Shown: positions 6,834 to 22,954 of the stretch, in pieces | How the letters are laid out: each line of letters opens with the position of its first letter | How positions within the stretch are numbered: the stretch's first letter is position 1 | Source: Oscillospiraceae bacterium | Lineage (GTDB): Bacteria > Bacillota > Clostridia > Oscillospirales > Ruminococcaceae | Direction: 5' to 3' | Assembly (NCBI GenBank): GCA_017533485.1 | Contig: JAFXIC010000049.1 | Coordinates: forward strand, 1 to 32,597 | Length of the DNA stretch: 32,597 bases | The notes under the pieces: generated by a model | What the model was told of the DNA's origin: nothing | The model's database searches: none | Seen by the model: the letters and a program-made list of their open reading frames with translations, nothing else | Made by a program: the position numbers and the translations under genes

Positions 6834-7715
6834 TCATTTCGTAGAGGGCGTATTGGAAAATACGTCCGCAATATCATTGATTGCAATAAACGCTTTTTTA
6901 TCGAGCGCGTGGACGATATCACGCATCATAGAGACCTGAAACCGGTTGATGATAATATAAATCATCGTGCGGCTGTTTCCGGAATAATAGCCTCTGACCT
7001 CCGAAACCGTAATGCCCGTTCCGAACGCACGCGAAAGCTCCTCACAAATTACATTCGGATTTTCGGTAATAATCGTTGCGGCTTTTACTTTATTCAAGCC
7101 CTCGACAATGAAATCAATCGTCTTGGACGCCGCCGCATAGGTCACAATCGAATACAGCGGCAGAATCCAGCTGTTCGACGCGATTCCGCAGATAATATAC
7201 AGAATGACGTTATAGATCATCACGAATGTACCGACGCTGATGCCGATCCGCTTTGCGAACAGGACCGAGAGCACCTCAATCCCGTCAATCGCACCGCCAA
7301 ACCGAATGGTCAGACCGCTTCCGATTCCGGAGATGATACCGCCGAAGATCGCGCATAGAAACAAATCCTGTTTCGCAAGCGGCGAGGCGAACGACACATC
7401 CACCGGCAGAACATCCGTAATCAGATATGCCGCAGCCGAATAGGTGACAACCGCAATCGCAGAATAGATCGTAAACTTTCTGCCCTGACGCCTGAGCCCC
7501 AGAATAAACAGCGGAATATTCAGTATAATCAGAAAAACCGAAAGCGATACCTTCCCCTCCGTCAGCTCTCCGAGCAGCATCGAAGTACCCGAAATGCCGC
7601 TGTCATACAGCGAAACAGGAGCCAAAAACATCGTTACACCAATGGCGTTGATGATGCCGGCGACGAGTATCAGCAAAACATTGATGATGTGCATCCGCTC
7701 AAACATCCGCTTCAT
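6834..7715 (-). CDS. YitT-family membrane protein (DUF161 + DUF2179)
   Basis: A 293-residue integral membrane protein. The first 200 residues carry about five to six hydrophobic helices (for example INVLLILVAGIINAIGVTMFL, VFLIILNIPLFILGL and a glycine-rich GGIISGIGSGLTIRFGG segment typical of the family). The last 80 residues form a cytoplasmic DUF2179 domain (AATIITENPNVICEELSRAFGTGITVSEVRGYYSG). Length and domain order are normal for YitT proteins, whose transport role, if any, is not established. The start follows AAGGAG at about 12 bases and is served by the promoter at 7778-7806. The gene stands alone. Confidence 0.9.
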   Translation of the reverse strand: MKRMFERMHIINVLLILVAGIINAIGVTMFLAPVSLYDSGISGTSMLLGELTEGKVSLSVFLIILNIPLFILGLRRQGRKFTIYSAIAVVTYSAAAYLITDVLPVDVSFASPLAKQDLFLCAIFGGIISGIGSGLTIRFGGAIDGIEVLSVLFAKRIGISVGTFVMIYNVILYIICGIASNSWILPLYSIVTYAAASKTIDFIVEGLNKVKAATIITENPNVICEELSRAFGTGITVSEVRGYYSGNSRTMIYIIINRFQVSMMRDIVHALDKKAFIAINDIADVFSNTPSTK

Positions 7716-7839: not shown

Positions 7840-7868
7840 TTGACAAAGAAAGTCGGATTTGCTATAAT
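7840..7868 (+). promoter_or_regulatory. Consensus SigA promoter of the eight-gene glycan ABC operon
   Basis: TTGACA (7840-7845), a 17-base spacer and TATAAT (7863-7868) match consensus fully. The leader to the first start codon is about 110 bases. No clear operator dyad is visible around it, and no regulator gene is adjacent. Confidence 0.88.
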
Positions 7869-7983
7869 GAAATAGTATGGAGTATTATGACTTATATCGC
7901 TTTTGATGTTGAAAAAGCACGAAAATACGTACTATATTCAAATATCCGGAGCATACGGAATCGGCAAGGAAGGTGGGAATCGG

Positions 7984-10932
7984 ATGAAACAGAATATATT
8001 CTGCCGTATGGCAGCGGCACTGCTCGCAGGCTTTCTTTCGGTACAGCCGTCTGCTGCACTTTCCTGCACGGCATCGAACCTCCCAAAAACGGCGGATGCT
8101 TCCGTCTTATCCGCAGCCCCGTCTGCGGAGACTGACGAACCAGATTACTATACGCTGAAATTCGATCGCCGGATCAGTTACAGCGATTACTATGACAAGT
8201 ATGCAGACGCCCCGACACCCGATACCGAGCTGATGCTCTATGGTACACAGTACACTGCCGCAGAACACGGCACATTTTCAGTCGGTACAGTCGGTGAAAA
8301 TGCGGATGCACGCGAAAATATCCTGATCTGGAACAGTCCGCAGGGAGAGCTCTCCTATACGCTGGCGGTCGAAAAAGCCGGTGTGTACTGTGCCGAATTC
8401 TCCTATTACGCGCTGAAATCCCCCTCCAATTCAATAGAATTCGAGCTGCTGATTGACGGTACGCTGCCGTTCGAATCCGCGGCACGTATCTCTCTCAATA
8501 AGATTTTTGTCAACAAAACCGAAATCAAAACCGATGCGCGCGGCAATCAGATCCGCCCTTCACAAATCGAACAGCCTGCATGGCAGACCGCATTCCTGTA
8601 TGACGCGGACGGCTTATTCAATACGCCGCTTCGCTTCTATCTCTCTGCCGGCACCCATACCATCACCCTCAGAGGCGTCAAAGCCAATCTCGGCATCGAA
8701 TCCATCCGCTTCTGTCAGCCGGAACAGCCGCCTGTGCATCAGCCCCCGTCAGAACAGCAGCTTGCACAGACACCTTCCACCCGTTACCGGCTGGAGGGAG
8801 AAGCTGCCGTATACAAATCTGCTCCCACGCTCTGTCCTGCTTACGACAATAACAGCTACCTGATATCACCTTCCGATCCGGTGAAAATGGTCTATAATAC
8901 CATTGGCGGCGAAAACTGGAACCATGCCGGTCAGACCATCACATGGGAAATCCCCGAAGACGCACTCTCCCGCGACGGCTACTACCGCCTCGGCATCAAG
9001 GCGCGTCAGAATGTCATGCGCGGCTTCTATTCCAACCGCCGCATCTATATTGACGGGGAAGTGGCGGACGACGCCTTCTCACAGGTCAGATTCTATTATG
9101 ATACCGACTGGAACCTCACTGTTCCTTCCGCACCGGACGGTGACAGTGCATTCTTCTTCCTCTCCGCCGGTCAGAAGCATACCATCACCCTCGAAGCCAT
9201 TCCAGGCGAAATCGGAGAATCTATGCGCTATCTCGAATCCGTTGTCTCTGACCTCAATACCTGTTATCAGCAGATTCTGATGATTACGGGGCCGAATCCC
9301 GATCCGTACAATGATTATTATGTACAGGAGAGTGTTCCGACACTCCTCACGGATTTCAAACGGCTTTCGGATGCGCTGAAAGCCGCACAAAACGGCATCG
9401 AAACACTCTCCGGCACACTCGGCTCCGAGGCTGCCGCACTCCAGAGAATGTATGTGATTCTCGATAAATGTCTCGAAAAGCCAAGCCGTATCCCGAGCTA
9501 TGTCACACAGATGAAGGACAATATCTCCACAATCTCCACGTTTATCTGTGACTACCGCAATCAGCCGCTTGAAATTGATTATCTGGAGCTGACGTCCGCC
9601 GACACGGAGTTCTCCCCGCTCAAGGAAAACTTCTTCCGCCAGCTTGCATTCCGCTGGAAGGCATTTTTCGGCTCGTTCGGCGAAGAATATACCACGCTCT
9701 CCGATCTGGATACAGAAGATGAAGATGTCATCGAAGTCTGGGTCAATCTCGGCAGAGATCAGGCGCTCGTTGTCAAGGAACTCGTGGAGAACGATTTCGC
9801 ACAGCAATATCCCGATATCCCGATTGCAGTCAATCTGGTCGTAGGCGGCGTGGTCGAAGCAACCCTTGCGGATGAGGGGCCGGATGTCGCACTCTTCCTC
9901 GGCGGCGAATTCCCGATCAATCTTGCCTGCCGCGATCTTCTCGTTGATCTCAGCCGCTATGATGACATCGAAGATACCCTCGCACCCTTCCATCCCGAAG
10001 CTGCCGTACCCTATACCTATAACGGGAATATATACGGAATTCCCCTGACCCAGAGCTGGACGATGCTCTTTTACCGCACCGACATCCTCTCGGATCTTGG
10101 ATTTGAAGCCCTGCCGCGCACATGGCAGGATCTGGTCAATATGCTTCCTGCGCTCCAGCGCAGACATCTCGGCGTCGGACTGGTGCTCCCGAATACGAAT
10201 GTCGCACCGTCCACCGAAGCCGGCCATACCTTTGCAGCGCTGATGCTGCAGTCAGGACTGAATTACTATGACCCGCGCCAGACAAAAACGATGTTCGATA
10301 CCGTCACCGCTGTCCAATGCTTTGAACAATGGACAGACTTCTATACCGATTATAAATTCGCACAGACCTATGACCCGTACAGCTATTTCCGCACCGGTCA
10401 GTACCCGATGGTCATCGCCAATTACAGCTTCGCCAATCAGCTGACGGTTGCGGCACCCGAAATCCGCGGACTCTGGGATTTCACGGTGATGCCCGGAACA
10501 GTAAGACCCGACGGTACCTTCAGCCATGCCTCCAATTCTTCGGGCACCGGTGCTGTCATCTTCCGCCAGGTCGAACACCCCGATGACGCATGGACATTCG
10601 TAAAATGGTTCTGCTCCACGGAGGTACAGGCGGAATACGGTGCCAATATCGAGGGGCTGCTCGGTCAGATGGGACGCTATGAGGCGGCAAATTTCGAAGC
10701 ACTCTCAAAGCTGAACTGGTCCGCGAAAGAACTCGATGTCCTGAAAGCGCAATGGGAATCGCTCGAAGAAATCCCGATTCTCCCCGCTTCCTATGCCGTA
10801 ACCCGCAATATTATGAACGCATTCCGCGAAACAGTCAACGACAATGAAAATCCGCGCGATACCCTGATGTACTATAACAGCGATATGAATGACGAGATCC
10901 GGCGAAAGCGTGAAAACCTCGGTCTCGAATAA
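7984..10932 (+). CDS. Very large extracellular sugar-binding protein with two N-terminal carbohydrate-binding-like modules
   Basis: A 982-residue exported protein, more than twice the usual 400-450 residues of a family 1 solute-binding protein. Residues 1-35 look like a signal peptide; ALSC at the end is a poor lipobox, so lipid anchoring is uncertain. Two successive beta-rich modules follow (about 90-240 and 265-405); both end in the same pattern, FYLSAGTHTITLRG and FFLSAGQKHTITLEA, and resemble CBM35/CBM6-like jelly rolls. A helical linker (about 430-570) precedes the solute-binding domain (about 575-930), with GPDVALFLGGEFPINLACRDLLVDLS, PYTYNGNIYGIPLTQSWTMLFYRTD and a C-terminal PDDAWTFVKWF motif. 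ATG 7984 follows AAGGAAGG. First gene of the operon; it is the only binding protein for two permease pairs. Confidence 0.88.
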   Translation: MKQNIFCRMAAALLAGFLSVQPSAALSCTASNLPKTADASVLSAAPSAETDEPDYYTLKFDRRISYSDYYDKYADAPTPDTELMLYGTQYTAAEHGTFSVGTVGENADARENILIWNSPQGELSYTLAVEKAGVYCAEFSYYALKSPSNSIEFELLIDGTLPFESAARISLNKIFVNKTEIKTDARGNQIRPSQIEQPAWQTAFLYDADGLFNTPLRFYLSAGTHTITLRGVKANLGIESIRFCQPEQPPVHQPPSEQQLAQTPSTRYRLEGEAAVYKSAPTLCPAYDNNSYLISPSDPVKMVYNTIGGENWNHAGQTITWEIPEDALSRDGYYRLGIKARQNVMRGFYSNRRIYIDGEVADDAFSQVRFYYDTDWNLTVPSAPDGDSAFFFLSAGQKHTITLEAIPGEIGESMRYLESVVSDLNTCYQQILMITGPNPDPYNDYYVQESVPTLLTDFKRLSDALKAAQNGIETLSGTLGSEAAALQRMYVILDKCLEKPSRIPSYVTQMKDNISTISTFICDYRNQPLEIDYLELTSADTEFSPLKENFFRQLAFRWKAFFGSFGEEYTTLSDLDTEDEDVIEVWVNLGRDQALVVKELVENDFAQQYPDIPIAVNLVVGGVVEATLADEGPDVALFLGGEFPINLACRDLLVDLSRYDDIEDTLAPFHPEAAVPYTYNGNIYGIPLTQSWTMLFYRTDILSDLGFEALPRTWQDLVNMLPALQRRHLGVGLVLPNTNVAPSTEAGHTFAALMLQSGLNYYDPRQTKTMFDTVTAVQCFEQWTDFYTDYKFAQTYDPYSYFRTGQYPMVIANYSFANQLTVAAPEIRGLWDFTVMPGTVRPDGTFSHASNSSGTGAVIFRQVEHPDDAWTFVKWFCSTEVQAEYGANIEGLLGQMGRYEAANFEALSKLNWSAKELDVLKAQWESLEEIPILPASYAVTRNIMNAFRETVNDNENPRDTLMYYNSDMNDEIRRKRENLGLE

Positions 10933-10957
10933 TCCCCACGGAAAGGAGGACGACTGC

Positions 10958-11896
10958 TTGGAAGCACATCAAATCGGTCTGAAATCCAAAAAAGAACGCC
11001 GCCGCCAGCTCTGGCGTCAGGTCAGACAGAATCGCGATGTCTATCTGATGATGCTGCCGTTTATGGTGCTGTTCTTCGTATTTACCGTCATCCCTGTTGT
11101 CATGTCCCTCCCCATCGGTCTGACGGATTTTGATATGGCAAAATTCCCGCCGAAATTTGTCGGGCTCAGTAACTTCTATAACCTCTTTCTCAACGACAGC
11201 ATCTTTATCCACTCGATTCGTGTCACCCTCATTTTCGCTGTCTTTACCGGCCCGATCAGCTATATCCTCAGCTTCCTTCTGGCATGGCTGATCAACGAGA
11301 TGCGGCCCGTACTCCGCGTCATCTTTACGCTGATTTTCTATGCGCCGTCCATGGCGTCGGGCGTTTATGCCGTCTGGCAGCTCATCTTCTCCGGCGACAG
11401 CTATGGCATCGCGAATTCTGCACTGATGAACCTCGGAATCACCACCTCCGCCATCCAATGGCTCACCGATTCCAACTATATTCTCCCCGTCGTCATCCTC
11501 GTCCAGCTCTGGGTCAGTATGGGTGCCGGCTTCCTTGCGATGCGCGCAGGCTTCCAGAATATCGACCGCAGTATGTATGAAGCCGGTGCGATCGAGGGCA
11601 TCCGCAATCGCTTCCAGGAACTGATTTATATCACAATCCCCTGCATGGGGCCTTCACTGATGTTTGCTGCGGTGATGCAGATCGTTTCTGCCTTTACCGC
11701 CGATATCGTCGCAAGAAACCTCGTCGGCTTCCCAAGCACGGATTATGCCGCTCATACCATCATGACGCACGCCTTCGACTACGGCTGGGTACGCTTTGAA
11801 ATGGGCTATGCTTCCGCAATCTGCATGGTGCTGTTTGTGGTGATGTATCTCTGTAACCGCCTGATTTCCAAGGTGCTCGGAAAATATATGGATTAA
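10958..11896 (+). CDS. Sugar ABC transporter permease, MalF/LplB type (pair 1)
   Basis: A 312-residue membrane protein with six predicted helices. The EAA loop that contacts the ATPase reads YEAGAIEGIRNRFQELIYITIP near residue 205-225. The start is a TTG at 10958, chosen because AAAGGAGG lies eight bases upstream; the open frame further upstream runs back into the preceding gene. N-terminal residues (KSKKERRRQLWRQ) are basic and cytoplasmic. It is 25 bases after the binding protein gene and 19 bases before its partner permease. It forms the import channel with the next gene product. No ATPase is encoded here, so a shared MsmK/UgpC-type ATPase elsewhere is inferred. Confidence 0.93.
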   Translation: MEAHQIGLKSKKERRRQLWRQVRQNRDVYLMMLPFMVLFFVFTVIPVVMSLPIGLTDFDMAKFPPKFVGLSNFYNLFLNDSIFIHSIRVTLIFAVFTGPISYILSFLLAWLINEMRPVLRVIFTLIFYAPSMASGVYAVWQLIFSGDSYGIANSALMNLGITTSAIQWLTDSNYILPVVILVQLWVSMGAGFLAMRAGFQNIDRSMYEAGAIEGIRNRFQELIYITIPCMGPSLMFAAVMQIVSAFTADIVARNLVGFPSTDYAAHTIMTHAFDYGWVRFEMGYASAICMVLFVVMYLCNRLISKVLGKYMD

Positions 11897-11915
11897 GGAG
11901 GTGCCGGAGATATCT

Positions 11916-12788
11916 ATGGATCAACAAAAAAGATTAAAAGCCTCCAACCGGCCTGCCGGACGAAAAATCGGCGGTACTGTCCTTATCTTCCTGTTTTTGC
12001 TGGTGCTCGGCGGATTTATGGTGCTTCCGATCTGGCTGATGCTCGTCAACAGCGTCAAGCCCGTCAATGAAATGTTCCTCTTTCCGCCGAAATGGTATAC
12101 GCTGAATCCGACCTTCGACCATTTCCGTGACACCTACCGCGTCCTCAGCGCGATGTGGATTCCGTTCTCCCGATATGTCTTTAACAGCATCCTCGTGACG
12201 GTCGCTGTCACCGTCGCACAATGCGTCTTTTCTTCGATGGCGGCTTTCTGTCTTGCGAAATGCAGATTCCCCGGAAGAAAATTCATCAACGGTATCATCG
12301 TGCTTTCGCTCCTCTATAACAGCAATGTCATCTATCTCATGCAGTATATGGTAATGGCGAAGCTCCACCTCATCAATACCTATGCCGCGCTGATTCTCCC
12401 GACCGTCGCCTCCACAATGGGACTCTATCTGATGCGCCAGAGCATGGCTTCCGTTCCCGATGCCATGATTGAGGCGGCTAAGGTGGATGGCGCAAGCCTT
12501 TTTGCAATCTGCTGGAGAATCGTCATCCCGAACCAGAAGCCCGCACTCATGACGATGGCAATCTTCGCGTTCCAGAGTGCCTGGAATATCACAGGCGGAA
12601 GTCTTGTGTATGACGAAGCCTATAAAACACTCCCGACCGTGATCCAGCAGGCGGCTGCCGCAGGTATCTCCCGTCAGGGTGTCACGATGGCGGCGGCAGT
12701 CATCCTCTTTTTACCGCCGGTACTGTTCTTTATCCTCGCCCAGAGTCAGGTCATGGAAACCATGGCGCATTCGGGCATCAAAGACTGA
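11916..12788 (+). CDS. Carbohydrate ABC transporter permease, MalG/YtcP type (pair 1)
   Basis: A 290-residue membrane protein with six predicted helices and the EAA loop IEAAKVDGASLFAICWRIVIP. The N-terminal motif SVKPVNEMFLFPPKWYTLNPTFDHF is typical of this group of carbohydrate permeases. A GTG at 11901 is in frame but is part of the ribosome binding site AAGGAGGTG; the ATG at 11916 is correctly spaced and is taken as the start. It should pair with the permease just upstream. Confidence 0.93.
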   Translation: MDQQKRLKASNRPAGRKIGGTVLIFLFLLVLGGFMVLPIWLMLVNSVKPVNEMFLFPPKWYTLNPTFDHFRDTYRVLSAMWIPFSRYVFNSILVTVAVTVAQCVFSSMAAFCLAKCRFPGRKFINGIIVLSLLYNSNVIYLMQYMVMAKLHLINTYAALILPTVASTMGLYLMRQSMASVPDAMIEAAKVDGASLFAICWRIVIPNQKPALMTMAIFAFQSAWNITGGSLVYDEAYKTLPTVIQQAAAAGISRQGVTMAAAVILFLPPVLFFILAQSQVMETMAHSGIKD

Positions 12789-12811
12789 TTACACAGAAAG
12801 GAGGGAACGCA

Positions 12812-14341
12812 ATGAAGCGTCCTGTTCGCGCTCTGCGGCTGGCAGTATGCGGTCTGACTGCGCTGCTGCTCTGGACAAGAATGCCGTTTTCGGTATCTGC
12901 GGATGAACCGTATGATGTCTACCACTACAACGACCTCGGCGAAGCGATTCCCTCTCAGGCTGGCTATCTTGCAGAAACCTCCGTTTCCGGAACTGACCTC
13001 GGAATTTCTGCATTCTCCGAACCCTCCGACCTGTTTAAGGACATCGACGACTGTTTCTATATCGCGGACTCCGGAAATCACCGTATCGTCAAGATCAATC
13101 CCGATTTTACGGAAGTGCTTGCCGTCTACGACAGCTTCCGCCTCCCGGATGGTACGAAAACAACCCTCAATCACCCAAAAGGCATCTATGTTTCCCCCGA
13201 TACCGGACTTCTCTATATCGCGGACTCCGATAATGCCCGCGCACTCATTGCCGAGCCCGACGGAACCGTGCGTCAGGTCATCCAAAAGCCAAGCTCGCCG
13301 GTCTATGACCAGCAGCTTACCTTCCTTCCGCAGAAAATCCTCTGTGACAACGCCGGAAACGTATATATCATCCTCGGCAATACCACGAAAGGTGCCGCAA
13401 TGTTCGATCGGGACGGCAGCTTCCTCGGCTATTACGGTGCGAACAGCGTCAAACGGACACCGGCAGTCATCGCCAACTACTTCTGGAACCGCATCTCCTC
13501 CGAAGAATCCAGAAAATACCGTGTCCGCAATACCCCGACCGCCTTCGATAATTTTGATATCGACCGTGAAAAAGGCTTTATCTTTACCTCAACCTCCTCC
13601 GGAAACAGCAATACCGATATTGTCAAAAAGGTCAATCCGGAGGGACATAATCTCTTTTCCCATCTCTCCGGATTCGTCTGGGGTGATGAATTTTCCACCT
13701 GGTACGGCGGTACCGCTTACCAGACCAAGATCATTGATATCGACATCGGGGATGACCGCTCGATCAACTGTCTCGATACCACCACCGGCAGAGTCTTTCA
13801 GTATGATGAAGAAGCAAACCTCCTCTTTATCCTCGGTACCATCGGTGATCAGGTCGGCGGCTTTACACAGGGCGGTGTTGCTGCCGTCGAAACAAAAGGC
13901 GAAAACTGTGAGCAGATCTATGTCCTCGATTCGCTCAAGGGTACGGTCACACGCTTCTCACAGACTGCCTTCGGCGCGATCGTCCACAATGCCGCATCCC
14001 TTTATCAGCAAGGAAAATATGAAGAAGCACTGGAGCCGTGGCTGGAAGTGCTGAAATACGACGGAAACTACCGCAGGGCTTATATCGGAATCTCCAGTGC
14101 CTACTATAATATGGGCAGGTATCAGGAATCCATGGAATACGCCAAAAAAGCAGATTCCTCCAGCCGCTATAACCGTGCGTTCTCAAAATACCGCGCACAG
14201 TTCCTCAAGGCACATATGACCGAAATCCTCGGTGCGGCGGCAGGACTCTGGGCAGCCGCTTTCGCGATGCGCCGCATCATCCGCAAACGAAAAGCAGGTC
14301 AGCCTGCACAGTCTGACACGCAAGGAGGTGGCTTATCATGA
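12812..14341 (+). CDS. Secreted NHL-type beta-propeller with TPR and C-terminal membrane anchor
   Basis: A 509-residue protein. Residues 1-31 are a signal peptide ending SVSA. Residues 50-385 hold NHL-like blades; two are clear, with YIADSGNHRIVKINPDF and LLYIADSDNARALIAEPDG, and a later YVLDSLKGTVTRFSQ. Residues about 390-465 form TPR-type helical pairs (LYQQGKYEEALEPWLEVLK, AYYNMGRYQESMEYAKKA). A hydrophobic segment (about 468-490) and a basic tail RRIIRKRKAG end the protein, giving an outside propeller and TPR held by one C-terminal helix. AAAGGAGGG precedes ATG 12812. It may be a scaffold or sugar-sensing part of the import machine; an enzymatic role of the lactonase kind is less likely because no catalytic set was recognised. 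Confidence 0.85.
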   Translation: MKRPVRALRLAVCGLTALLLWTRMPFSVSADEPYDVYHYNDLGEAIPSQAGYLAETSVSGTDLGISAFSEPSDLFKDIDDCFYIADSGNHRIVKINPDFTEVLAVYDSFRLPDGTKTTLNHPKGIYVSPDTGLLYIADSDNARALIAEPDGTVRQVIQKPSSPVYDQQLTFLPQKILCDNAGNVYIILGNTTKGAAMFDRDGSFLGYYGANSVKRTPAVIANYFWNRISSEESRKYRVRNTPTAFDNFDIDREKGFIFTSTSSGNSNTDIVKKVNPEGHNLFSHLSGFVWGDEFSTWYGGTAYQTKIIDIDIGDDRSINCLDTTTGRVFQYDEEANLLFILGTIGDQVGGFTQGGVAAVETKGENCEQIYVLDSLKGTVTRFSQTAFGAIVHNAASLYQQGKYEEALEPWLEVLKYDGNYRRAYIGISSAYYNMGRYQESMEYAKKADSSSRYNRAFSKYRAQFLKAHMTEILGAAAGLWAAAFAMRRIIRKRKAGQPAQSDTQGGGLS

Positions 14342-14967
14342 TGGACCTGACACAGAAGCAATGGGTCGGACACGTCATCTTCCATCCGTTCGAAGGATTT
14401 GAAGATCTGCGCTGGAAAAAAGGCGGTACGCTGAAGTATACTGCGGTCATCCTCATCGCACTCTTTTTTGCACTGATCGCCTATGACAGATGGTGCGGAT
14501 TCCAGTTCCGTCCGCTTCCGGACGCACTCTTTTCAGTCACCCCCTATCTCATGAAGAGCCTTGTATACTTCGGAACATGGTGTGTCGGAAACTGGGCGGT
14601 CTGTACACTCCTCGACGGAGAGGGCACGCTCCGGAATATCACGATTTACAGCTCCTATGCGCTGATTCCGTATATCCTCTCCACATTTGTCAATGTCGTG
14701 CTTTCCCATATTCTCATTCAGGAGGAAGCCGTCTTCTTCCATCTCGTATACTACCTCGGACTCCTCTGGTCAACCCTCCTCCTCTTTCAGGCAATCAAGG
14801 CTGTCCATCAGTATTCCTTCCCCAAAACCCTTGCGGCAATCGCCCTCACCCTCGCCGCCATGCTCATCATCCTCTTTCTGGCAGTCCTCTTTTTAAGCCT
14901 GTTCCAGAAGGTCTATGTCTTTTTCTATTCGCTCTATACCGAAATCCTCTACCGGATTCGCACATAA
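14338..14967 (+). CDS. YIP1-family membrane protein
   Basis: A 209-residue integral membrane protein with about five hydrophobic segments (for example YTAVILIALFFALIAYD, ALIPYILSTFVNVVLSHI, LAAIALTLAAMLIILFLAVLFLSLF). The N-terminal HPFEGFEDLRWKKGG motif is typical of bacterial YIP1-domain proteins. The ATG overlaps the stop of the preceding gene by four bases, with CAAGGAGGTG upstream; a second ATG follows at once, so the start is 14338 or 14341. Coupling with the NHL/TPR gene suggests the two products act together in the membrane. Molecular function is unknown. Confidence 0.82.
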   Translation: MMDLTQKQWVGHVIFHPFEGFEDLRWKKGGTLKYTAVILIALFFALIAYDRWCGFQFRPLPDALFSVTPYLMKSLVYFGTWCVGNWAVCTLLDGEGTLRNITIYSSYALIPYILSTFVNVVLSHILIQEEAVFFHLVYYLGLLWSTLLLFQAIKAVHQYSFPKTLAAIALTLAAMLIILFLAVLFLSLFQKVYVFFYSLYTEILYRIRT

Positions 14968-14982
14968 GGGGAGGTGAAGAGA

Positions 14983-17373
14983 TTGCGAAATATACTGAAA
15001 CAAGGGATGGCGTTCTTCCTCTCGACAGTCTGTCTCCTGTCATTCCACTGTCCGCTCAGCCCTTTTGCGGCAGAAGATTCCGATACGGTACCCGACGCTT
15101 CCCAGCCGGATGCTTCATCTGACGCCGAGGCATGGACAAACCGCACAGCGGAAGATGTCCTGAAGCGTATGCGCTGTGCGGCAGAAAACGAGAATCTCGC
15201 ACTGTATGTCTGGAATACGGATACACTGGAAAAGGACGAGGAAGCGGAGGATATCTTCGCCCTCGTCAATCGCAAAAACGGATATATCTGGTGGTCATCC
15301 CCCATCAATGCGGCAGGCGACAAGATTGCAACACGTGTCCTTTCCAAAGAACTGCAATCCGCACTGGTACTGACCTATGCCGAGCCGGAAAACCGATCTT
15401 CCACAAAACATCGTTCTGGTGACAGTACAAAATGTACGGTCACCTCCCGCGATATGGAAAATGGTGTAGAGGTCACCTATTTCTTCCGGAAAGCCGGTAT
15501 CCGGATTCCGGTATCCTATACGCTTTGTGAAGATTATCTGGAGGTCAGCATCGACAGCCGGAGCATTACAGAAAAATTTGGAAAAGAAGATCCTGACAGC
15601 AAAAAATATATCCTCACCCAGTCGCTTTCTATGCTCAACGCATTTGGCGCGGCGGATTCCGAAGAAACAGGTTATTTTGTAATCCCCGACGGCTGCGGCG
15701 CACTCATTCACTTCAATAACCGGAAATATTCCGCCAAAACCTACAGCCAGCTGATTTACGGCGCGGATACAACTGCCGTTCCGCAGACCAAGGGGCCGAC
15801 GGTCGAGGGCGTTTCACTCCCGATGTACGGCATCTGTAAGGGAGAAAATGCAATCCTCGCAATCGCTGCGGGCGGCGACGGAAATTGTATGCTCAATGCC
15901 GATGTCAGCGGCACCGGACAGTCCAATACCGAATATAACCGCTGCTACTTCCAGTTCGTGCTGCGCGCACCCGATTCCTATTACCTCGGCGGCGACAGCA
16001 TCAATGCGCTCGATATCTACGAAAAGAATATCGAACCTGCCGACATCGCCGTTCGCTACTATCCGCTTTGCAGCGAAGATGCGGTCAATGCCGATCACAG
16101 CAAGGATCTCGATACGGTGGATATTGCTGCGAAATATCGGGAATATCTGCTTTCCGAGTGCGGTGTTGTTCCGACGGCAAAGCCCGATTCGACAACGCTT
16201 TGTGTCGATATCTACGGCGGCTGTATGAAACAGAAAAATATCCTCGGCTTCCCCGTTTCCATGAAAACCTGCATGACAAGCTATACCGACACACAAAATA
16301 TTCTGGAGCAGCTGAAAGCGAACGGGGTATCCGATCTCACCCTCACCCTCCATCAATGGACGGATGCCGGTATCAGCGGAAAAGTGGATTATAAGGCAAA
16401 GCCTTCCGCAGTCCTCGGCGGCGCGGAAGATTTCGACCAGCTCAAGACATATCTCGAAACACAGAAAATCGACTTCTATCCCAGCGTCAGCAATACTGCA
16501 TTCTATTCCGGAAACGGCTATTATGCGCTGCGCGATACCGCGGTGCGCGTCTCCGGCGCATTCGCCCGTATTGTCGATTATGAACGTGCTTACGGCGTTC
16601 CGTACAGCGATAAAAAACCGATGTCGCTGCTTTCGCCTTCCGCTTTTGACGCACTCTACAAAAAGCTTTCTGAGAATGCCCGGAAGAATGGCTTATCCGC
16701 GGTTGCAGTCGGTGCGCTTTCCTCCTCCCTCTACGGCGATTATGACAAAAAATCAACCGTTACCCGGGAACAGGCAAAGTCTCAGGTCGCAAACAGCCTC
16801 AGCTGCCTGCATTCGAATGTCGGACAGATTCTCTCGGAAGATCCCAATGCCTATATACTCCCCTATACCGATATCATTACCGATATGCCCCTTTCTTCGA
16901 GCGGCTTCAATCTCTTTGACGCAGATGTACCGCTCTATCAGATGGTGATGCACGGCGTCATTCCCTATACCACCAAAGCGGTCAATGCTTCGGCAGACCC
17001 CACAGAACTTCTGCTCCGCTCGGCGGCTACCGGCAGCAATCTGAGCTTCGATTTTCTCCACGCCGATATCAGTAAGCTCAAGGATACCGATTTTGATGTG
17101 TACTACTATGCAAACGATGCAAACTGGATTCGCTCCGCCGCAGAATACTACCTGTTCTTAAAGGATATCCTTACCGCCGTCAGCGATTCCTATATCATCA
17201 GCTACCGCGAAGACGAAAATACGATCCTGACACGTTATGCAAACGGCATCGAAATTCTGACCGATCTGGATGCCGCAGCCGTCACCCTTCAGGGAAAAAC
17301 CTATGCCCTGTCAGATTATCATACGGAAGGAGATGCAGGACTTGGCGGAATCATCCATCAGCAAACCCCGTAA
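14983..17373 (+). CDS. DUF5696-type secreted protein with glycosidase-like layout
   Basis: A 796-residue exported protein with a signal peptide (to about residue 31, ending SPFAA). Residues about 70-330 are a beta-sandwich resembling the N-terminal module of GH31/GH97-like enzymes, with IFALVNRKNGYIWWSSP and the family mark GYFVIPDGCGALIHFNN. Residues about 400-680 alternate helices and strands as in a TIM barrel (TQNILEQLKANGVSDLTLTLHQWTDAG; IDFYPSVSN; GLSAVAVGALSSSLYGDY; FNLFDADVPLYQMVMHG). I cannot name catalytic acids. TTG 14983 is preferred to GTG 14974 because the GTG is inside the ribosome binding site GGGGAGGTG. Family function is unknown to me; a role in processing or holding the imported glycan is inferred from context. 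Confidence 0.8.
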   Translation: MRNILKQGMAFFLSTVCLLSFHCPLSPFAAEDSDTVPDASQPDASSDAEAWTNRTAEDVLKRMRCAAENENLALYVWNTDTLEKDEEAEDIFALVNRKNGYIWWSSPINAAGDKIATRVLSKELQSALVLTYAEPENRSSTKHRSGDSTKCTVTSRDMENGVEVTYFFRKAGIRIPVSYTLCEDYLEVSIDSRSITEKFGKEDPDSKKYILTQSLSMLNAFGAADSEETGYFVIPDGCGALIHFNNRKYSAKTYSQLIYGADTTAVPQTKGPTVEGVSLPMYGICKGENAILAIAAGGDGNCMLNADVSGTGQSNTEYNRCYFQFVLRAPDSYYLGGDSINALDIYEKNIEPADIAVRYYPLCSEDAVNADHSKDLDTVDIAAKYREYLLSECGVVPTAKPDSTTLCVDIYGGCMKQKNILGFPVSMKTCMTSYTDTQNILEQLKANGVSDLTLTLHQWTDAGISGKVDYKAKPSAVLGGAEDFDQLKTYLETQKIDFYPSVSNTAFYSGNGYYALRDTAVRVSGAFARIVDYERAYGVPYSDKKPMSLLSPSAFDALYKKLSENARKNGLSAVAVGALSSSLYGDYDKKSTVTREQAKSQVANSLSCLHSNVGQILSEDPNAYILPYTDIITDMPLSSSGFNLFDADVPLYQMVMHGVIPYTTKAVNASADPTELLLRSAATGSNLSFDFLHADISKLKDTDFDVYYYANDANWIRSAAEYYLFLKDILTAVSDSYIISYREDENTILTRYANGIEILTDLDAAAVTLQGKTYALSDYHTEGDAGLGGIIHQQTP

Positions 17374-18310
17374 ACTGCGCAATCAGACGCACCGCTTATC
17401 ATATGAACGCCGAAAAGCCCTGTATGGATATGGATTTCTGGCACTCTGGCTCGTCGGTACGATCCTCTTTTTCCTCATCCCCCTCGGAAAATCCCTTTGC
17501 TACTGCTTTATGGATAACAATTCCCTCAAGCCGGATGTCGGCGGAATGCGTGAGGCGTGGCTGAGCATTTCCGATTTCGGATGGCTTGCGAACTTCCGGT
17601 ATGTCTTCGTACAAGACCCGTACTATAAACAACACCTGATTTCCGTACTGAAGGATACGCTGCTGACAACGCCGCTGATTCTCATCTTCTCGCTGTTTAT
17701 TGCTGTTATCCTCAATCAGAAATTCAAGGGCAGAGGCTTTGCACGCGCAGTCTTCTTTCTCCCCGTCATCATCGCAACCGGCCCGGTCTATAATATCATC
17801 AACGGTGATATCGCCGCAACCGGTGCGGACAGCGGTGCACAGTTTTCCACCCTCTTTGAAACCGATATTGTCGATGAACTGCTGGAATTTCTCGGTGTGA
17901 TGAATATTTCGGACAATCTTTCGAGCGTCATCAATACCGTTACCACCAATATCTTCGGGCTTGTCTGGAACAGCGGCATCCAGATTCTCATCTTCCTTGC
18001 CGCACTCCAGAATATCCCGCCCTCCGCGAAAGAAGCCGCATCCATGGAGGGTGCGACCGCCTGGGAATATTTCTGGAAAATTACTCTCCCCTATGTCAGT
18101 CCGATGATTCTCGCAAACTTTATCTATACCATCATTGATGCCTTTACCGCCGCCGATAACAGCGTCATGGCAAGAGTCCTCTCCAAACAGCTCGACTGGG
18201 ATTATGCCTATGCCGCCGCAATGGTCTGGAGCTATTTCCTCATCGTCATTCTCGCGCTGGCAATCACGGTCGGCATCATCAACCGCTATATCTTCTATGA
18301 AGTGGACTAA
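17342..18310 (+). CDS. Sugar ABC transporter permease, MalF type (pair 2)
   Basis: A 322-residue membrane protein with the EAA loop KEAASMEGATAWEYFWKITLP. It differs from the pair 1 permease by an extra outside or loop segment of about 55 residues (GDIAATGADSGAQFST to NISDNLSSVINTVTT) between two helices. The start is a TTG at 17342 with GGAAGGAG nine bases upstream; the nearer ATG at 17333 directly abuts the binding site. The gene overlaps the end of the DUF5696 gene by 32 bases, unusual in this operon and suggestive of strict coupling. Confidence 0.9.
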   Translation: MAESSISKPRKLRNQTHRLSYERRKALYGYGFLALWLVGTILFFLIPLGKSLCYCFMDNNSLKPDVGGMREAWLSISDFGWLANFRYVFVQDPYYKQHLISVLKDTLLTTPLILIFSLFIAVILNQKFKGRGFARAVFFLPVIIATGPVYNIINGDIAATGADSGAQFSTLFETDIVDELLEFLGVMNISDNLSSVINTVTTNIFGLVWNSGIQILIFLAALQNIPPSAKEAASMEGATAWEYFWKITLPYVSPMILANFIYTIIDAFTAADNSVMARVLSKQLDWDYAYAAAMVWSYFLIVILALAITVGIINRYIFYEVD

Positions 18311-18325
18311 GGGAGGTGCTGGAAC

Positions 18326-19441
18326 TTGAATACAAAACAGAATCCCAAGGCTCCCGAAGTCATTGAAACACCGACACCGCCTGCCGCCGCGGAATCCGGC
18401 ATCCCAGAATCCGCAATCCCCGATCTCAGAACACCGCATACAGTCGGAAACGGAATGTCCAAAAAAGAGGCGATGCAGATCCGGATGCAGAATATGAGCC
18501 GCAAGGAAATCTTCTACCTCCGAAAAAAACGGCTTGTCGAAAATATCTGGCCGGTTTTTCGCTTCCTCATCCTGTTCGGACTGGGATTTGTGATTCTCAC
18601 ACCCCTGATCTTTATGGTCAGCTACGGATTCCGGAGTGCGTCAGACATGAACGATCCGACCATTATCTGGATTCCGCGCCATGTTTCACTCAAGGTGATG
18701 AAAGAGACAATTCAGGCGATGGGGCTTCTTCGTTCCCCGCTGAACCGCGGAAATCCTCTTGTCAACACCATCCTCATCAATCTCGGCTGTTCGGTCTTTC
18801 AGGTGCTGTCCTGTGCCGTCACAGGCTACGGCTTCGCAAGATTTCAGTTCAAAGGGAAAAAACTCCTGTTCGGAATCGTCATCCTGATGATACTCGTTCC
18901 CGTTCAGGTCATCTCGATCCCCCTTTATATGACATTCAAGAACTTCTTTTTCGGTACCGTCAACCTCATTGACAGCTATGCGGTGATGTACCTGCCTGCG
19001 ATGACAGCCAACGGCATTCGTGCCGGTCTGATGATATTCATTTTCCGCCAGTTCTTCCGCGGACTGCCAAAGGAGCTGGAGGACGCCGCCTATCTTGATG
19101 GCTGCGGGCCGCTCGGCACCTTCCTGCGCGTGATGGCACCAAACGCCGCTTCGGCTTTCCTTACGGTATTCTTATTCTCTATCGTCTGGTACTGGAATGA
19201 TTTCTACACATCCTCGGTATTCTTCTCCAACACAAAAACAATGGCGCTGGTGCTGAAGAATCTGGATGCCGCGATCAATATCGAGATCTTTAAAAATGCC
19301 AATGCCAATGTCAGCGCGCGCGAAAAAATCGTCTGGCTGGAAGCAGGATGTCTGATATCCATTACGCCGATGCTGATTTTGTATGCCTGTCTGCAAAAGC
19401 ATTTCACCGAGGGTATTGAGCGTTCGGGACTGGTAGGATAA
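18326..19441 (+). CDS. Carbohydrate ABC transporter permease, MalG type (pair 2), with N-terminal extension
   Basis: A 371-residue permease with the EAA loop LEDAAYLDGCGPLGTFLRVMAP. It is about 80 residues longer than its pair 1 counterpart because of a cytoplasmic N-terminal region: a Pro/Ala/Glu-rich stretch (APEVIETPTPPAAAESGIPE) and a basic helix before the first membrane segment. The start is a TTG at 18326 with GGGAGGTG eight bases upstream. It is the last gene of the operon; the stop is followed four bases later by the 60-bp dispersed repeat and then by the terminator at 19672-19704. It should pair with the permease 15 bases upstream. Confidence 0.92.
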   Translation: MNTKQNPKAPEVIETPTPPAAAESGIPESAIPDLRTPHTVGNGMSKKEAMQIRMQNMSRKEIFYLRKKRLVENIWPVFRFLILFGLGFVILTPLIFMVSYGFRSASDMNDPTIIWIPRHVSLKVMKETIQAMGLLRSPLNRGNPLVNTILINLGCSVFQVLSCAVTGYGFARFQFKGKKLLFGIVILMILVPVQVISIPLYMTFKNFFFGTVNLIDSYAVMYLPAMTANGIRAGLMIFIFRQFFRGLPKELEDAAYLDGCGPLGTFLRVMAPNAASAFLTVFLFSIVWYWNDFYTSSVFFSNTKTMALVLKNLDAAINIEIFKNANANVSAREKIVWLEAGCLISITPMLILYACLQKHFTEGIERSGLVG

Positions 19442-19445
19442 TGAT

Positions 19446-19505
19446 TTTTCCCCTTTCAATCCCCTTTCCGTTACCCATCCCCCTCTATCGGCGTGCTCTT
19501 ACGAT
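19446..19505. repeat. 60-bp dispersed intergenic repeat, copy 2
   Basis: Direct repeat of 7-66 with one mismatch (19488). Homology begins four bases after the stop codon of the last permease and ends sharply after TACGATA. Unlike copy 1, no inverted partner of the C-rich end is found in the following 200 bases. Confidence 0.85.
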
Positions 19506-19541
19506 ATAGCGTACATTCTATCCTATTTCTTAAATGGGATT

Positions 19542-19635
19542 CCAAAGGGATAGTATCCCTTTGGCGGGGTTTGGGGCAGCGCCCCATAATAACTCCATCG
19601 GAGATACATATAAACAGGGTGCGGGGCAGCGCCCC
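19542..19635. repeat. Cluster of three small hairpins, two nearly identical
   Basis: A perfect 10-bp hairpin (CCAAAGGGAT, 19542-19551, with ATCCCTTTGG, 19555-19564; loop AGT) is followed by two copies of GGGGCAGCGCCCC (19573-19585 and 19623-19635), each a 5-bp stem, both followed by ATA. No coding sequence is seen between 19442 and 19724. The layout resembles REP-like intergenic elements rather than transcription terminators, since T-runs are absent. Confidence 0.7.
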
Positions 19636-19671
19636 ATATACCATCCTATCACAAGACACCACAAAACAAAA

Positions 19672-19704
19672 GCATCCGGCTGACCGTACAGCCGGATGCT
19701 TTTT
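19672..19704. terminator. Strong intrinsic terminator ending the glycan ABC operon
   Basis: An 11-bp perfect stem GCATCCGGCTG (19672-19682) with CAGCCGGATGC (19689-19699) is followed by TTTTT. The minus strand continues TTTTGTTTTG after the stem, so it can also end the converging lipoprotein transcript. Confidence 0.92.
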
Positions 19705-19724: not shown

Positions 19725-21188
19725 TCAGGGTACCTGATAGAATGTCACAACGCTTCCGGTGAACAGCTTTCCGCCATCCGTACCGCCGCTGTATGCGCCG
19801 CCTTTTGTGACATAATGTTCGGATGTACCGCCGCTGACTGAACCGCCGTAGCTGACGGTATATTCAGTATTGACATTCAGATTCGGGCCGGCATATACGA
19901 CATATTTAAAGCTGCGCGGCGAGGTGAATGCCGCAATCGTATTTCCTGCCTGAGCGAACTGTACCAGCGTATTGGCAGGCTGTGCGGCAGAAAATACTGC
20001 GCCCATAACCGGTGCGCCGCAGGCGGAATTATCCGGCATCGTACAGGTATTGCCGATTGCATATACCGTACCGCCGTTGACCGCGAAGGTTCCGTCACAA
20101 TAAATTGCGCCCTTTTCTTCCCGTACACCGCCGATGAGAATGGATTCGCCGCCGTTGATATTGATATAGCCATCAGTTTTGATGCCGTTCGTACCGCCGT
20201 CACAGAATAAGGTGCCGCCGTTGATGTCGATTCCATCGTTGCAGTGCAGACCGCTCTTCGTAGAAGTAATATTGATGATGCCGCTGTTGATAATAATATC
20301 ATCATCGCTCTGGACACCGTGGGCATATCTGCCGTTGATATTCAGCGTACCCTCACCCTCGAAGATGATCGTATCCTCGGTGAAGATCGCGCCCTTATCC
20401 GCATCATGCGTACCGCCGTCAGAAATGGTATTCACCGTACCGGGCATCGTCTGGATGGTCAGCTTCTTTACCTGCTGACAGTTGATCGCAGAGCCTGCCT
20501 GATTGGTGATATCACATCCCGCAAGCTGCAAATACACTTTCTTATCGTCCGTCATAATATAAATCTGACCATCCGAAAGCGTACCGGAAATCTGATAGAT
20601 TCCGCCTTTTGTAATGGTAATGGTGCTGCCGGAAACCGTAATGCCGGTACCCTGATACTGGGCGGAATTGCCTTGCAGGTAGATATACTTGGTTTCTTTG
20701 ACTTTTGGTGTTTCTTCCGTTGTCGAAGTCGAAGCAGAAGTCTGTGCGGTTGTTTTGGTTGTGGTAGTAGTTTTCGAGGTCTGCTTCGTCGAGGATGTCG
20801 ATGCCGCGCTGCTTGCAGCAGAGGACTGTCCTCCCTGTGCATCCTGCGCGTCTGTTGCAGAAGCCGGTGCCTGTGTACCTTCGGATGCGCCGCCGTCCGT
20901 TACATCAGTACCGACCGGTTCTGTACCGGACTGACCGCTGCTGTCCGCATCGGGCTTTTTCTTATCTTCATTCTTCTTATCGTTCTTGTCCTCCTTCTCG
21001 TTCTTCTTGTCGGTATCCTCGTCGTCATCATCATCGTCTTCGTCCTCATCATCCGAGGGGATTGTGGTTGTCACGCCGGAATTTTCCGCAAGATCACTTT
21101 CGCTGTCACATCCGCTCAGCGGACAGACGGAAAGCAGAGCTGCCAGCAGGACTGCACAGATGCGCGCAGAGCGTCTATCCTTTTTCAT
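19725..21188 (-). CDS. Surface lipoprotein with Cthe_2159-like (DUF4353) carbohydrate-binding beta-helix
   Basis: A 487-residue lipoprotein: MKKDRR, hydrophobic core, lipobox LSGC. An unusually acidic segment (about 43-60, mostly D and E) runs into a K/E/D-rich stretch and then a Ser/Thr/Ala/Gln-rich spacer to about residue 160, as expected for a stalk through the cell wall. Residues about 165-487 consist of short repeated rungs with ININGG, DIIINSG, GIDINGGT, FAVNGGTVYAIGN, as in the parallel beta-helix of Cthe_2159, described as a polygalacturonate/cellulose-binding protein. ATG 21188 follows AAAGGA. It lies 78 bases downstream of the DUF4956 gene, with a hairpin between, and is the last gene of the VTC-DUF4956 cluster. 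Confidence 0.87.
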   Translation of the reverse strand: MKKDRRSARICAVLLAALLSVCPLSGCDSESDLAENSGVTTTIPSDDEDEDDDDDDEDTDKKNEKEDKNDKKNEDKKKPDADSSGQSGTEPVGTDVTDGGASEGTQAPASATDAQDAQGGQSSAASSAASTSSTKQTSKTTTTTKTTAQTSASTSTTEETPKVKETKYIYLQGNSAQYQGTGITVSGSTITITKGGIYQISGTLSDGQIYIMTDDKKVYLQLAGCDITNQAGSAINCQQVKKLTIQTMPGTVNTISDGGTHDADKGAIFTEDTIIFEGEGTLNINGRYAHGVQSDDDIIINSGIINITSTKSGLHCNDGIDINGGTLFCDGGTNGIKTDGYININGGESILIGGVREEKGAIYCDGTFAVNGGTVYAIGNTCTMPDNSACGAPVMGAVFSAAQPANTLVQFAQAGNTIAAFTSPRSFKYVVYAGPNLNVNTEYTVSYGGSVSGGTSEHYVTKGGAYSGGTDGGKLFTGSVVTFYQVP

Positions 21189-21208
21189 ACGTGGTTCCTT
21201 TCTATGGA

Positions 21209-21253
21209 TGCACAAAAAGACCAAGTCTTTCTCAGAGGCTCAGTCTTTTTGCA
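21209..21253 (-). promoter_or_regulatory. Hairpin between DUF4956 gene and lipoprotein gene, possible attenuator
   Basis: AAAAAGAC (21214-21221) pairs with GTCTTTTT (21243-21250), extended by TGC/GCA on the outside; on the minus strand the descending arm ends in five T. It could partly terminate the upstream transcript, lowering lipoprotein expression, or protect the mRNA end. No clear promoter was found between it and the lipoprotein start. Confidence 0.5.
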
Positions 21254-21266
21254 CCATTCGTTCGTC

Positions 21267-22028
21267 TTATTTTGCTTTCGTATCATAAATCTGATCGTCA
21301 TAGCGGTAGAGAACCAGTGTGACATTCAGATTGCCGTTCAGCGCACGGATATCATCAATAAATTTTTTCTGGTCTGCATCTGTTTTCACGCGGACTGCGT
21401 AAACGAGGTCAAAGAGTGTACCGAAATCGGTTGTCTTGACGCGGCGCAGACGCCATGTTGTCGTATATTTCTCCATGACCTTATCGAACAGGCCATTGTA
21501 GTTGAGATTTTCGGGGATTGTGACCTTGAGCGTCATATCCTGAACCTTGGGAGCGGCAAAATTGGTGAGGTGGAAGATCACGAGGACTGCGCTGACAAGG
21601 AGGAAGAACAGGAATGCATAACCGACAAAGCCGATACCGCAGACAACACCCATGCTCATTGCGAAGAAGATATAGGCGATATCACGCGGATCTCCGGGCG
21701 CACTGCGGAAACGTACCAGCGAGAATGCGCCGGTCAGCGAGATTGCGGCGGTCATACCGGCGGTCGTATTCGCGAGTACACACATCATGATAATGACAAC
21801 GCATACCAGCGTCGAGAGCATCGGCATCGTCAGCACATAGCTCTGGCTGTAACCTTCCTTCCGGTGTGTAAACATATACACGAGGGAAATCAGCAGACCG
21901 ACAACGAGTGCGGTCAGCACACAAGCAGAGACCTGACCGACAGTTGGCATATTGAGGTTGAATTCGGACTGATCGCTGAATACGCGTGCGAACAATTTGG
22001 ATGAACTGAGAGCGGAGAGATTAAGCAT
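21267..22028 (-). CDS. DUF4956-family membrane protein
   Basis: A 253-residue protein with four hydrophobic segments in residues 30-160 (VSACVLTALVVGLLISLVYMF, LTMPMLSTLVCVVIIMMCVLA, AYIFFAMSMGVVCGIGFVGYA, FLFFLLVSAVLVIFHL) and a soluble C-terminal domain (about 165-253). The motif GAFSLVRFRSAPGDPRDIAYIF between helices is the hallmark of DUF4956. ATG 22028 is supported by AAAGGAAGG upstream and overlaps the VTC gene by eight bases, indicating translational coupling. VTC and DUF4956 are a known recurrent pair, but I know of no settled function for the membrane partner; export or anchoring of the VTC product is inference. Confidence 0.88.
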   Translation of the reverse strand: MLNLSALSSSKLFARVFSDQSEFNLNMPTVGQVSACVLTALVVGLLISLVYMFTHRKEGYSQSYVLTMPMLSTLVCVVIIMMCVLANTTAGMTAAISLTGAFSLVRFRSAPGDPRDIAYIFFAMSMGVVCGIGFVGYAFLFFLLVSAVLVIFHLTNFAAPKVQDMTLKVTIPENLNYNGLFDKVMEKYTTTWRLRRVKTTDFGTLFDLVYAVRVKTDADQKKFIDDIRALNGNLNVTLVLYRYDDQIYDTKAK

Positions 22029-22785: not shown

Positions 22786-22954
22786 CTGATGTGCATTCCA
22801 TACGAAGCGGAACCGCAGGAATGCGCCTCCCTCCTTACTCGCTGAATTTTTTCTATCTCTATGCACAGCCCATGCGGCTGCAAAAATATTATAAAGCCCC
22901 CTGCTTAAAATAACCTGAATTTACAAACTGCAAAAAAGAGAAAAATATCAAACG

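Follow-up and report, generated by a model that had tools for sequence, protein, structure and literature searches.

The DNA stretch analysed here, hereafter the window, comprises the 32,597 nucleotides of contig JAFXIC010000049.1 (assembly GCA_017533485.1) from an Oscillospiraceae bacterium. The genome to which it belongs (G000, where the window is contig C34) amounts to 2.12 Mb and is 88% complete, and its nearest named relatives are Ruminococcus/Oscillospiraceae genomes, mostly from herbivore guts. Between positions 7984 and 19441 the window carries eight tightly packed genes, all on the + strand, which extend from a sigma-70-type promoter to a terminator hairpin (Table 1). This octet encodes a large extracellular solute-binding protein (SBP), two pairs of ATP-binding cassette (ABC) permeases of the carbohydrate uptake transporter 1 (CUT1) class, and, between the two pairs, an NHL/TPR protein, a YIP1-domain protein and a DUF5696 protein. 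The octet is real and widespread and is read here as a composite importer, of which the literature searches yielded no description. Other genomes, contigs and loci are designated below by G, C and L numbers.

Table 1. Genes and transcription signals of the octet in the window
Feature	Position	Strand	Evidence or remarks
Sigma-70-type promoter	7840..7868	+	TTGACA-17-TATAAT (TGCTATAAT as -10), extended -10 (TGC)
Large extracellular SBP, 982 aa	7984..10932	+	SBP_bac_8 87 bits, SBP_bac_1 70 bits
CUT1 permease A1 (UgpA/MalF type)	10889..11896	+	NCBIfam UgpA, GlcT matches
CUT1 permease B1 (UgpE/MalG type)	11901..12788	+	Pfam, NCBIfam
Exported NHL beta-propeller + TPR protein	12812..14341	+	NHL 32.2 bits, TPR_2 28.8 bits
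YIP1-domain polytopic membrane protein	14338..14967	+	Yip1 (PF04893) 53.3 bits, cut-off 28.6
Exported DUF5696 protein	14974..17373	+	DUF5696 504 bits
CUT1 permease A2	17333..18310	+	BPD_transp_1; open reading frame opens at 17270, overlapping DUF5696
CUT1 permease B2	18326..19441	+	BPD_transp_1; N-terminal extension of ~80 residues
Intrinsic terminator hairpin	19668..19703	+	15 pairs

Organisation and conservation of the octet

Of 28 promoter-like sites (17.1 +/- 4.6 expected), only the promoter of the octet matches at 12/12 positions. The hairpin was reported by the scan for the - strand; since a T run closes the + strand as well, it is probably a bidirectional terminator. This arrangement suggests that all eight genes are read as a single transcript.

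The open reading frame of the large SBP begins at 7903 with a TTG, and the ATG at 7984, which is preceded by a ribosome-binding site (AAGGTGGG), is its probable start. Its SBP_bac_1/8 domain lies at about residues 575-903, behind some 570 N-terminal residues. Relatives show good conservation of this N-terminal half, which found no match in Pfam or PDB. The closest solved structure, Lin1841 (5ysb, E 6.7e-21), covers the C-terminal half only. Lin1841 is a beta-1,2-glucan binder, and an attempt to name the substrate of the large SBP from it was abandoned, the relative being too distant.

Both permease pairs are of the MalF/UgpA plus MalG/UgpE type, with NCBIfam matches below the equivalog cut-offs. 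Permease A1 has no Pfam match, BPD_transp_1 being found in the other three, and is recognised through UgpA (67 bits, E 2e-18) and GlcT, both under their curated cut-offs. For A2, the in-frame ATG at 17333 is the likelier start. The EAA-type loop was found with a loose pattern in 45/50 (A1), 41/41 (B1), 32/48 (A2) and 59/60 (B2) sequences, and with a stricter one in 4/78, 64/67, 44/78 and 85/87, respectively. The YIP1 gene overlaps the NHL/TPR gene by 4 nt. In relatives, the C-terminal segment of the NHL/TPR protein looks hydrophobic and resembles a membrane anchor, and a crude hydropathy scale gives no strong transmembrane segment in the copy of the window.

The conservation of this gene set was surveyed in a phylum sample of 398 genomes. 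DUF5696 (PF18952) was matched in 46 of them, above the curated cut-off in 39 and at full length in 37, the genome of the window included. Several octet copies per genome occur in some taxa, and copy numbers of DUF5696 are under-counted, as only the three best candidates were scored in many genomes. All 55 listed full-length placements besides that of the window were examined, in stretches of up to 20 kb. An NHL/TPR gene lies beside DUF5696 on the same strand in 54 (the remaining one is ended by its contig), and so does YIP1, also in 54. Two permeases follow DUF5696 in 52; two loci are cut by their contigs, and L117 shows one permease and then about 1 kb of contig. In 35 of the 55 loci, the NHL/TPR and YIP1 parts are fused in one reading frame. 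Over the part that their contigs cover, the loci of close relatives (11) and further loci of the window's family (15) keep the same gene order.

The reverse search gave a similar result. At E 1e-10, a profile of the NHL/TPR protein matched 85/398 genomes, with a gap in the scores: 38 genomes reach at least 188 bits, and other NHL proteins stay at or below 74 bits. Thirty-seven of these 38 genomes are precisely those with full-length DUF5696, and among 14 loci examined from their NHL gene, DUF5696 adjoins it in 11, two being ended by the contig. The last of the 14 (L113) belongs to the 38th genome, G243, and is a counter-example: its partial NHL gene lies near a contig end, and none of the other octet genes is found on the 7.9 kb of contig behind it.

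As the gene set is conserved across genomes, it goes beyond chance, and the genetic unity of the octet is strong. The sequence-only reading had described one promoter, eight tightly spaced genes including two permease pairs, and one terminator, all of which are present on the + strand, the pairs being confirmed by Pfam and NCBIfam matches. It had also held that the genes between the pairs were unlikely to be bystanders and had proposed their co-occurrence with permeases in other genomes as a check. Both points are borne out by the counts above, and the synteny and the NHL/TPR-YIP1 fusion rule out a bystander role for the three middle genes. The same reading counted NHL/TPR and YIP1 as two separate added parts, a view that does not hold for the loci in which they form a single protein.

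Some copies depart from the common arrangement. L100 is permuted, with NHL-YIP1 placed behind permease B2, and in L073 (3662-6012) permease B1 appears to be split in two, with a gene resembling an IS110-type transposase nearby on the opposite strand. In L081 (15274-19836) the octet copy adjoins an Omp85 gene, so that the octet is also present in a genome with outer-membrane genes.

DUF5696 and the GH129/GH101 glycosidases

DUF5696 is a remote relative with the fold of the glycoside hydrolase families GH129 and GH101. Pfam alone gives no hint of this relationship, which was reached through five proteins of the window's family (~620-690 aa), here called bridging proteins, which match DUF5696 at 48-76 bits and, in four of the five, GH101 at 22-35 bits, three of them above the cut-off of 25. 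A profile of the bridging proteins recovers from PDB the GH129 enzyme NagBb (5wzn) at E 1.4e-236, followed by a 3,6-anhydro-D-galactosidase (1e-29) and GH101 enzymes (3e-7 and weaker). The profile of DUF5696 alone finds nothing significant in PDB. In hhalign comparisons, a Ruminococcus-type DUF5696 profile aligns with the bridging proteins at a probability of 82 (E 1e-5), and a profile of 73 DUF5696 sequences at 99.2 (E 3e-19) over 596 columns. For these 73 sequences an alignment guided by a hidden Markov model was used, the first MAFFT version having been gappy (3619 columns). Single-sequence comparisons of DUF5696 with one protein matching the Pfam GH129 family and with one DUF6259 protein were weak, whereas the profile-profile comparisons are clear.

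Structure comparison points in the same direction. An AlphaFold model of DUF5696 (11 sequences) was obtained with a mean predicted local distance difference test (pLDDT) of 62 and a predicted template modelling score of 0.67. Foldseek places NagBb first among its PDB matches (E 2.9e-17, probability 1.00, template modelling score 0.59 by target), then GH101, and after it GH36, GH97 and GH31.

The catalytic pair of GH129 is not conserved in the aligned DUF5696 columns. In NagBb, we take D435 to be the nucleophile and E478 the acid/base; the position of D435 agrees with the profile match to the solved structure. Over the 73 sequences, the column at D435 holds R (18), G (16), S (12) and others, and that at E478 holds E (19), D (15), N (10), S (8) and T (8). 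The LDGW motif has an aspartate that the quadruple mutant 5wzq carries in altered form; the residue of DUF5696 aligned to it is T, N, S or V. DUF5696 is not filed as GH129 because these columns vary. Thus, with the fold shared and the catalytic columns varied, the GH129 chemistry has probably been lost, and DUF5696 would probably be a pseudo-glycosidase that binds glycan.

Several observations weigh against this reading. On the bridging proteins, Pfam GH129 scores at most 20.8 bits (cut-off 25.6), and on one of them. With its pLDDT of 62 and a root-mean-square deviation from NagBb of 8-10 A, the DUF5696 model is only moderate, and residues 581-593, which make up the catalytic region, fall below a pLDDT of 50. 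Moreover, D589 is kept in 65 of the 73 sequences, so that DUF5696 may possibly carry out a different chemistry. It could then be an active enzyme, an exported alpha-glycosidase or transglycosylase whose catalytic residues are arranged in a new way and which would trim the glycan before import. The GH129/GH101-like fold and the two well-kept aspartates, D589 and D649 (the latter in 62/71 sequences), speak for such an enzyme. However, the columns at the GH129 nucleophile and acid/base vary and none of the acidic residues in the barrel is conserved to 95%, and this alternative is considered unlikely.

Dispersed solute-binding proteins

The octet has two permease pairs and one SBP. A different contig of the window's genome (G000:C37, 7.3 kb) encodes an ordinary lipoprotein SBP, here the orphan SBP, and carries no permease. 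Among the loci, the SBPs most similar to the orphan are the ordinary ones that adjoin the octet in other taxa. Counting matches to the orphan profile of at least 35 bits within 9.5 kb of DUF5696, such an SBP is found at 41/55 loci of the phylum, at 2/15 further loci of the family and at 0/11 close loci.

The ordinary SBP follows the octet through the window's family. Its profile matches 37/119 family genomes at E 1e-30, namely 32/37 genomes in which DUF5696 has a long match versus 5/82 in which it has none (27/37 versus 5/82 with an earlier single-sequence query). The 32 octet genomes with an SBP have 1-11 matches each (median 3.5) and 29 of them at least two, some of these matches being fragments of a single gene. 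For 23 of these genomes, 0 of 97 SBP matches fall on the contig of the octet; G412, G431, G442 and G468 likewise have none on an octet contig. SBPs on the octet contig are present in G398, G485 and G503, adjoining the octet in L134 and L132, and those of G513 and G509 share its contig at distances of 114-2286 kb.

The neighbourhoods of these genes were also examined. Thirty hand-picked stretches around SBPs, 28 of them from octet genomes (7-20 kb, several reaching contig ends), contain CUT1 permeases in one case (L180). Conversely, in nine of ten other CUT1 permease loci (L167-L176), a permease pair is adjoined by a lipoprotein gene of SBP size, taken by its position and look as the pair's own SBP; L172 (G504) is a lone CUT1 permease. 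Both further pairs found in the genome of the window (C43, C73) and the one found in G513 are among these loci. The scattered SBPs may therefore be predicted to pair with permeases A2/B2.

The pairing is weakened by the following facts. The Fisher p of 1.4e-18 for the association of SBP and octet ignores relatedness, and three of the neighbouring SBP candidates at other CUT1 loci (L167, L168, L169) found no match when scanned with Pfam. Five octet genomes of the family have no ordinary SBP. The converse situation, an ordinary SBP without a DUF5696 or NHL gene, occurs in G402, G413, G424, G434 and G492. Three of these five genomes are at least 99% complete (the main SBP copy of G424 is broken); therefore, use of the SBP is not limited to the octet. 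The scattered SBPs could thus serve other permeases, their co-occurrence with the octet reflecting shared ancestry alone, as the five genomes and an association uncorrected for phylogeny would allow. We regard this as improbable, to much the same degree as an active DUF5696 enzyme, given that SBPs of the same profile adjoin the octet in most loci of the phylum and that the other CUT1 pairs nearly all have a candidate SBP of their own.

Some SBP genes stand in arrays. In L163 (3600-17000, G407:C5), about nine related SBP genes or pieces lie in tandem, some split, and no permease was found there; in L048 and L052, five consecutive SBP-like reading frames, one of which was checked with Pfam, come immediately after the octet, behind permease B2. 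The orphan SBP of L124 (1-3648) adjoins what we presume to be BspA-like leucine-rich repeat proteins, and the neighbour in L147 (G504) is similar.

Modules, mechanism and related systems

The octet can be divided into module A, with the large SBP and permeases A1/B1, and module B, with NHL/TPR, YIP1, DUF5696 and permeases A2/B2. The large SBP and/or A1/B1 lie upstream of the DUF5696 core in 30/55 loci of the phylum and downstream in 6; they were not found within 9.5 kb in 13, and 6 are undecided because the contig is too short. Since module A is missing within that distance in 13 loci and downstream in 6, module B is the constant core. The one-system view of the sequence-only reading thus stands as regards conserved synteny, but its parts are modular, and module A is separable from module B. 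Neither the GH129/GH101-like nature of DUF5696 nor the dispersed second SBP belonged to that reading, and both go beyond it.

This modularity could mean that two independent CUT1 importers are co-located for the products of one polysaccharide, with NHL/TPR-YIP1 and DUF5696 as accessories of the second only. In addition to the variable position of module A, many loci with module B only have their own ordinary SBP, in line with such an arrangement. Yet the window's family keeps all eight genes together in every locus long enough to be judged, and the 13 loci with module B only stem from seven genomes, six of which hold a full octet elsewhere (G240 is the only one in which it was not seen). Two separate importers are therefore rather improbable.

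As to energy supply, a stand-alone ATPase of the MsmX/UgpC type is encoded at G000:C13 (485.8 bits, cut-off 432), the sole match above the cut-off, and no permeases lie beside it. A single MsmK common to the CUT1 importers has been described for C. bescii (PMC8579813, PMC12096829).

The cargo was approached through neighbouring genes, with a Pfam scan of 75 of 123 listed neighbouring proteins, all from taxa other than the window's own family. Carbohydrate-active enzymes (CAZymes) among them include GH43 in six, GH42 in four and GH3 in three, as well as two each of GH10, GH26, GH27 (Melibiase_2), GH28, GH31, GH95, apiosidase and alginate lyase. These varied, mostly plant-polysaccharide enzymes fit a complex-glycan cargo, which may be a plant cell-wall oligosaccharide. 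The CAZymes differ between loci, and naming a substrate from the neighbouring genes was given up, as they provide no single answer. Around the dispersed SBPs, ten neighbourhoods read by eye are mostly housekeeping-like, with the exception of L160 (GH43- and GH3-looking genes), and lend little support to a plant-glycan role there. The sole recurrent regulator-like neighbour of the octet, named by eye from L056 and with no dedicated regulator search behind it, is a LacI-like cluster present at five loci.

That the octet might sense surface glycans or the state of the membrane, signalling through NHL/TPR-YIP1 instead of importing in bulk, could be thought from its several copies per genome in some taxa and from YIP1 and NHL/TPR not being known as transport parts. 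This is highly improbable in view of the four permease genes, which for the most part keep the EAA-type loop that couples to the ATPase, of SBPs and CAZymes recurring beside the octet, and of a LacI-like regulator, as expected for a sugar operon.

Built on the observed gene set, its order, the fusion, the fold relationship, the varied catalytic columns and the co-occurrence and scattering of the SBPs, the mechanism that we somewhat favour over its alternatives is that the octet works as one composite importer of the CUT1 class, in which several dispersed SBPs share the second permease pair. The eight products would form one physical complex. In module A, the large SBP would deliver to permeases A1/B1. 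In module B, an extracytoplasmic NHL/TPR platform would be held at the membrane with YIP1, together with DUF5696 and permeases A2/B2, and the exported GH129-like DUF5696 would bind glycan without performing the GH129 reaction. A2/B2 would take their cargo from an ordinary lipoprotein SBP, whose gene, in the greater part of the phylum, adjoins the octet; within the window's family, this gene lies mostly elsewhere and would have multiplied, so that one octet would serve several scattered SBPs. ATP would be hydrolysed by the shared MsmX/UgpC-type ATPase encoded elsewhere. A more specific form of this proposal, put forward tentatively, is that of a hub in which the membrane-anchored propeller/TPR/YIP1 platform and a non-hydrolytic glycan receptor feed a fixed CUT1 pair common to many interchangeable dispersed SBPs. 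Such a hub, with its glycosidase-derived receptor and shared permeases, is the best-supported mechanism, though it is unproven.

The composite importer shares traits with several known systems. As in the CUT1 importers UgpAEB and MalEFG, an SBP and heterodimeric permeases occur with no ATPase in the operon, a stand-alone one of the MsmX/UgpC type being present. Unlike them, the octet has two permease pairs with NHL/TPR-YIP1 and DUF5696 in the same operon, and the N-terminal half of its 982-aa SBP has an unmatched fold. DUF5696 resembles NagBb and the GH101 endo-alpha-N-acetylgalactosaminidases in a near full-length profile and fold relationship, and differs from them in its unconserved catalytic columns, its export and its tie to an importer. 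In the oligopeptide importers AmiA/AliA/AliB with AmiCDEF and the OppA set of Borrelia, several SBPs work on one permease, and energy-coupling factor (ECF) transporters share a module. One translocation module for several substrate-binding parts encoded elsewhere would likewise apply to the octet, which is instead of the carbohydrate CUT1 class, has accessory surface proteins and finds its SBPs dispersed mostly singly. In the SusCD systems of Bacteroidetes and in Gram-positive polysaccharide utilisation loci, surface glycan binding is coupled to import. The octet would join both functions too, and CAZymes adjoin many of its copies in other taxa; in contrast to SusCD, it contains neither SusC nor SusD, uses inner-membrane ABC permeases and has no recognised active CAZyme among its eight products. 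The structural similarity of the GH129 alpha-N-acetylgalactosaminidase NagBb to GH101 has been reported (PMC8106489).

The literature searches found no paper naming DUF5696, nor any mention of it among the listed matches on GH129. Nothing was found that joins the YIP1 family with an ABC permease and NHL repeat, or Yip1 with extracellular solute-binding; a search combining YIP1, ABC permease and polysaccharide gave only work on c-di-GMP in Erwinia, judged off topic from its listing. Among the listed matches on Caldicellulosiruptor transporters and C. bescii regulons, YIP1 is absent, as is the NHL repeat from those on regulons, and a search for orphan SBPs in Ruminococc* returned nothing.

If the proposal is true, functions could be given to two orphan families, DUF5696 and this bacterial branch of YIP1, and DUF5696 plus NHL-YIP1 would be a marker of a widespread glycan-import system. 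A glycosidase fold would apparently have been turned into the binding part of a transporter, and it would be explained how bacteria of gut and soil that have few sugar permeases could take up many oligosaccharides. The hub, in turn, would correspond functionally to SusCD, with an ABC transporter at its core.

The octet is flanked in the window by a divergent gene (6834-7715, - strand), which we take to encode a YitT-like membrane protein and whose promoter-like site (7806-7778) stands back to back with that of the octet. At about 19570-19640, after the last permease and ahead of the terminator, a short hairpin-like repeat, GGGGCAGCGCCCCATA, occurs twice. Beyond the terminator, convergent genes (19725-22866, - strand) presumably encode a Cthe_2159-like carbohydrate-binding protein, a DUF4956-like membrane protein and a VTC-domain protein.

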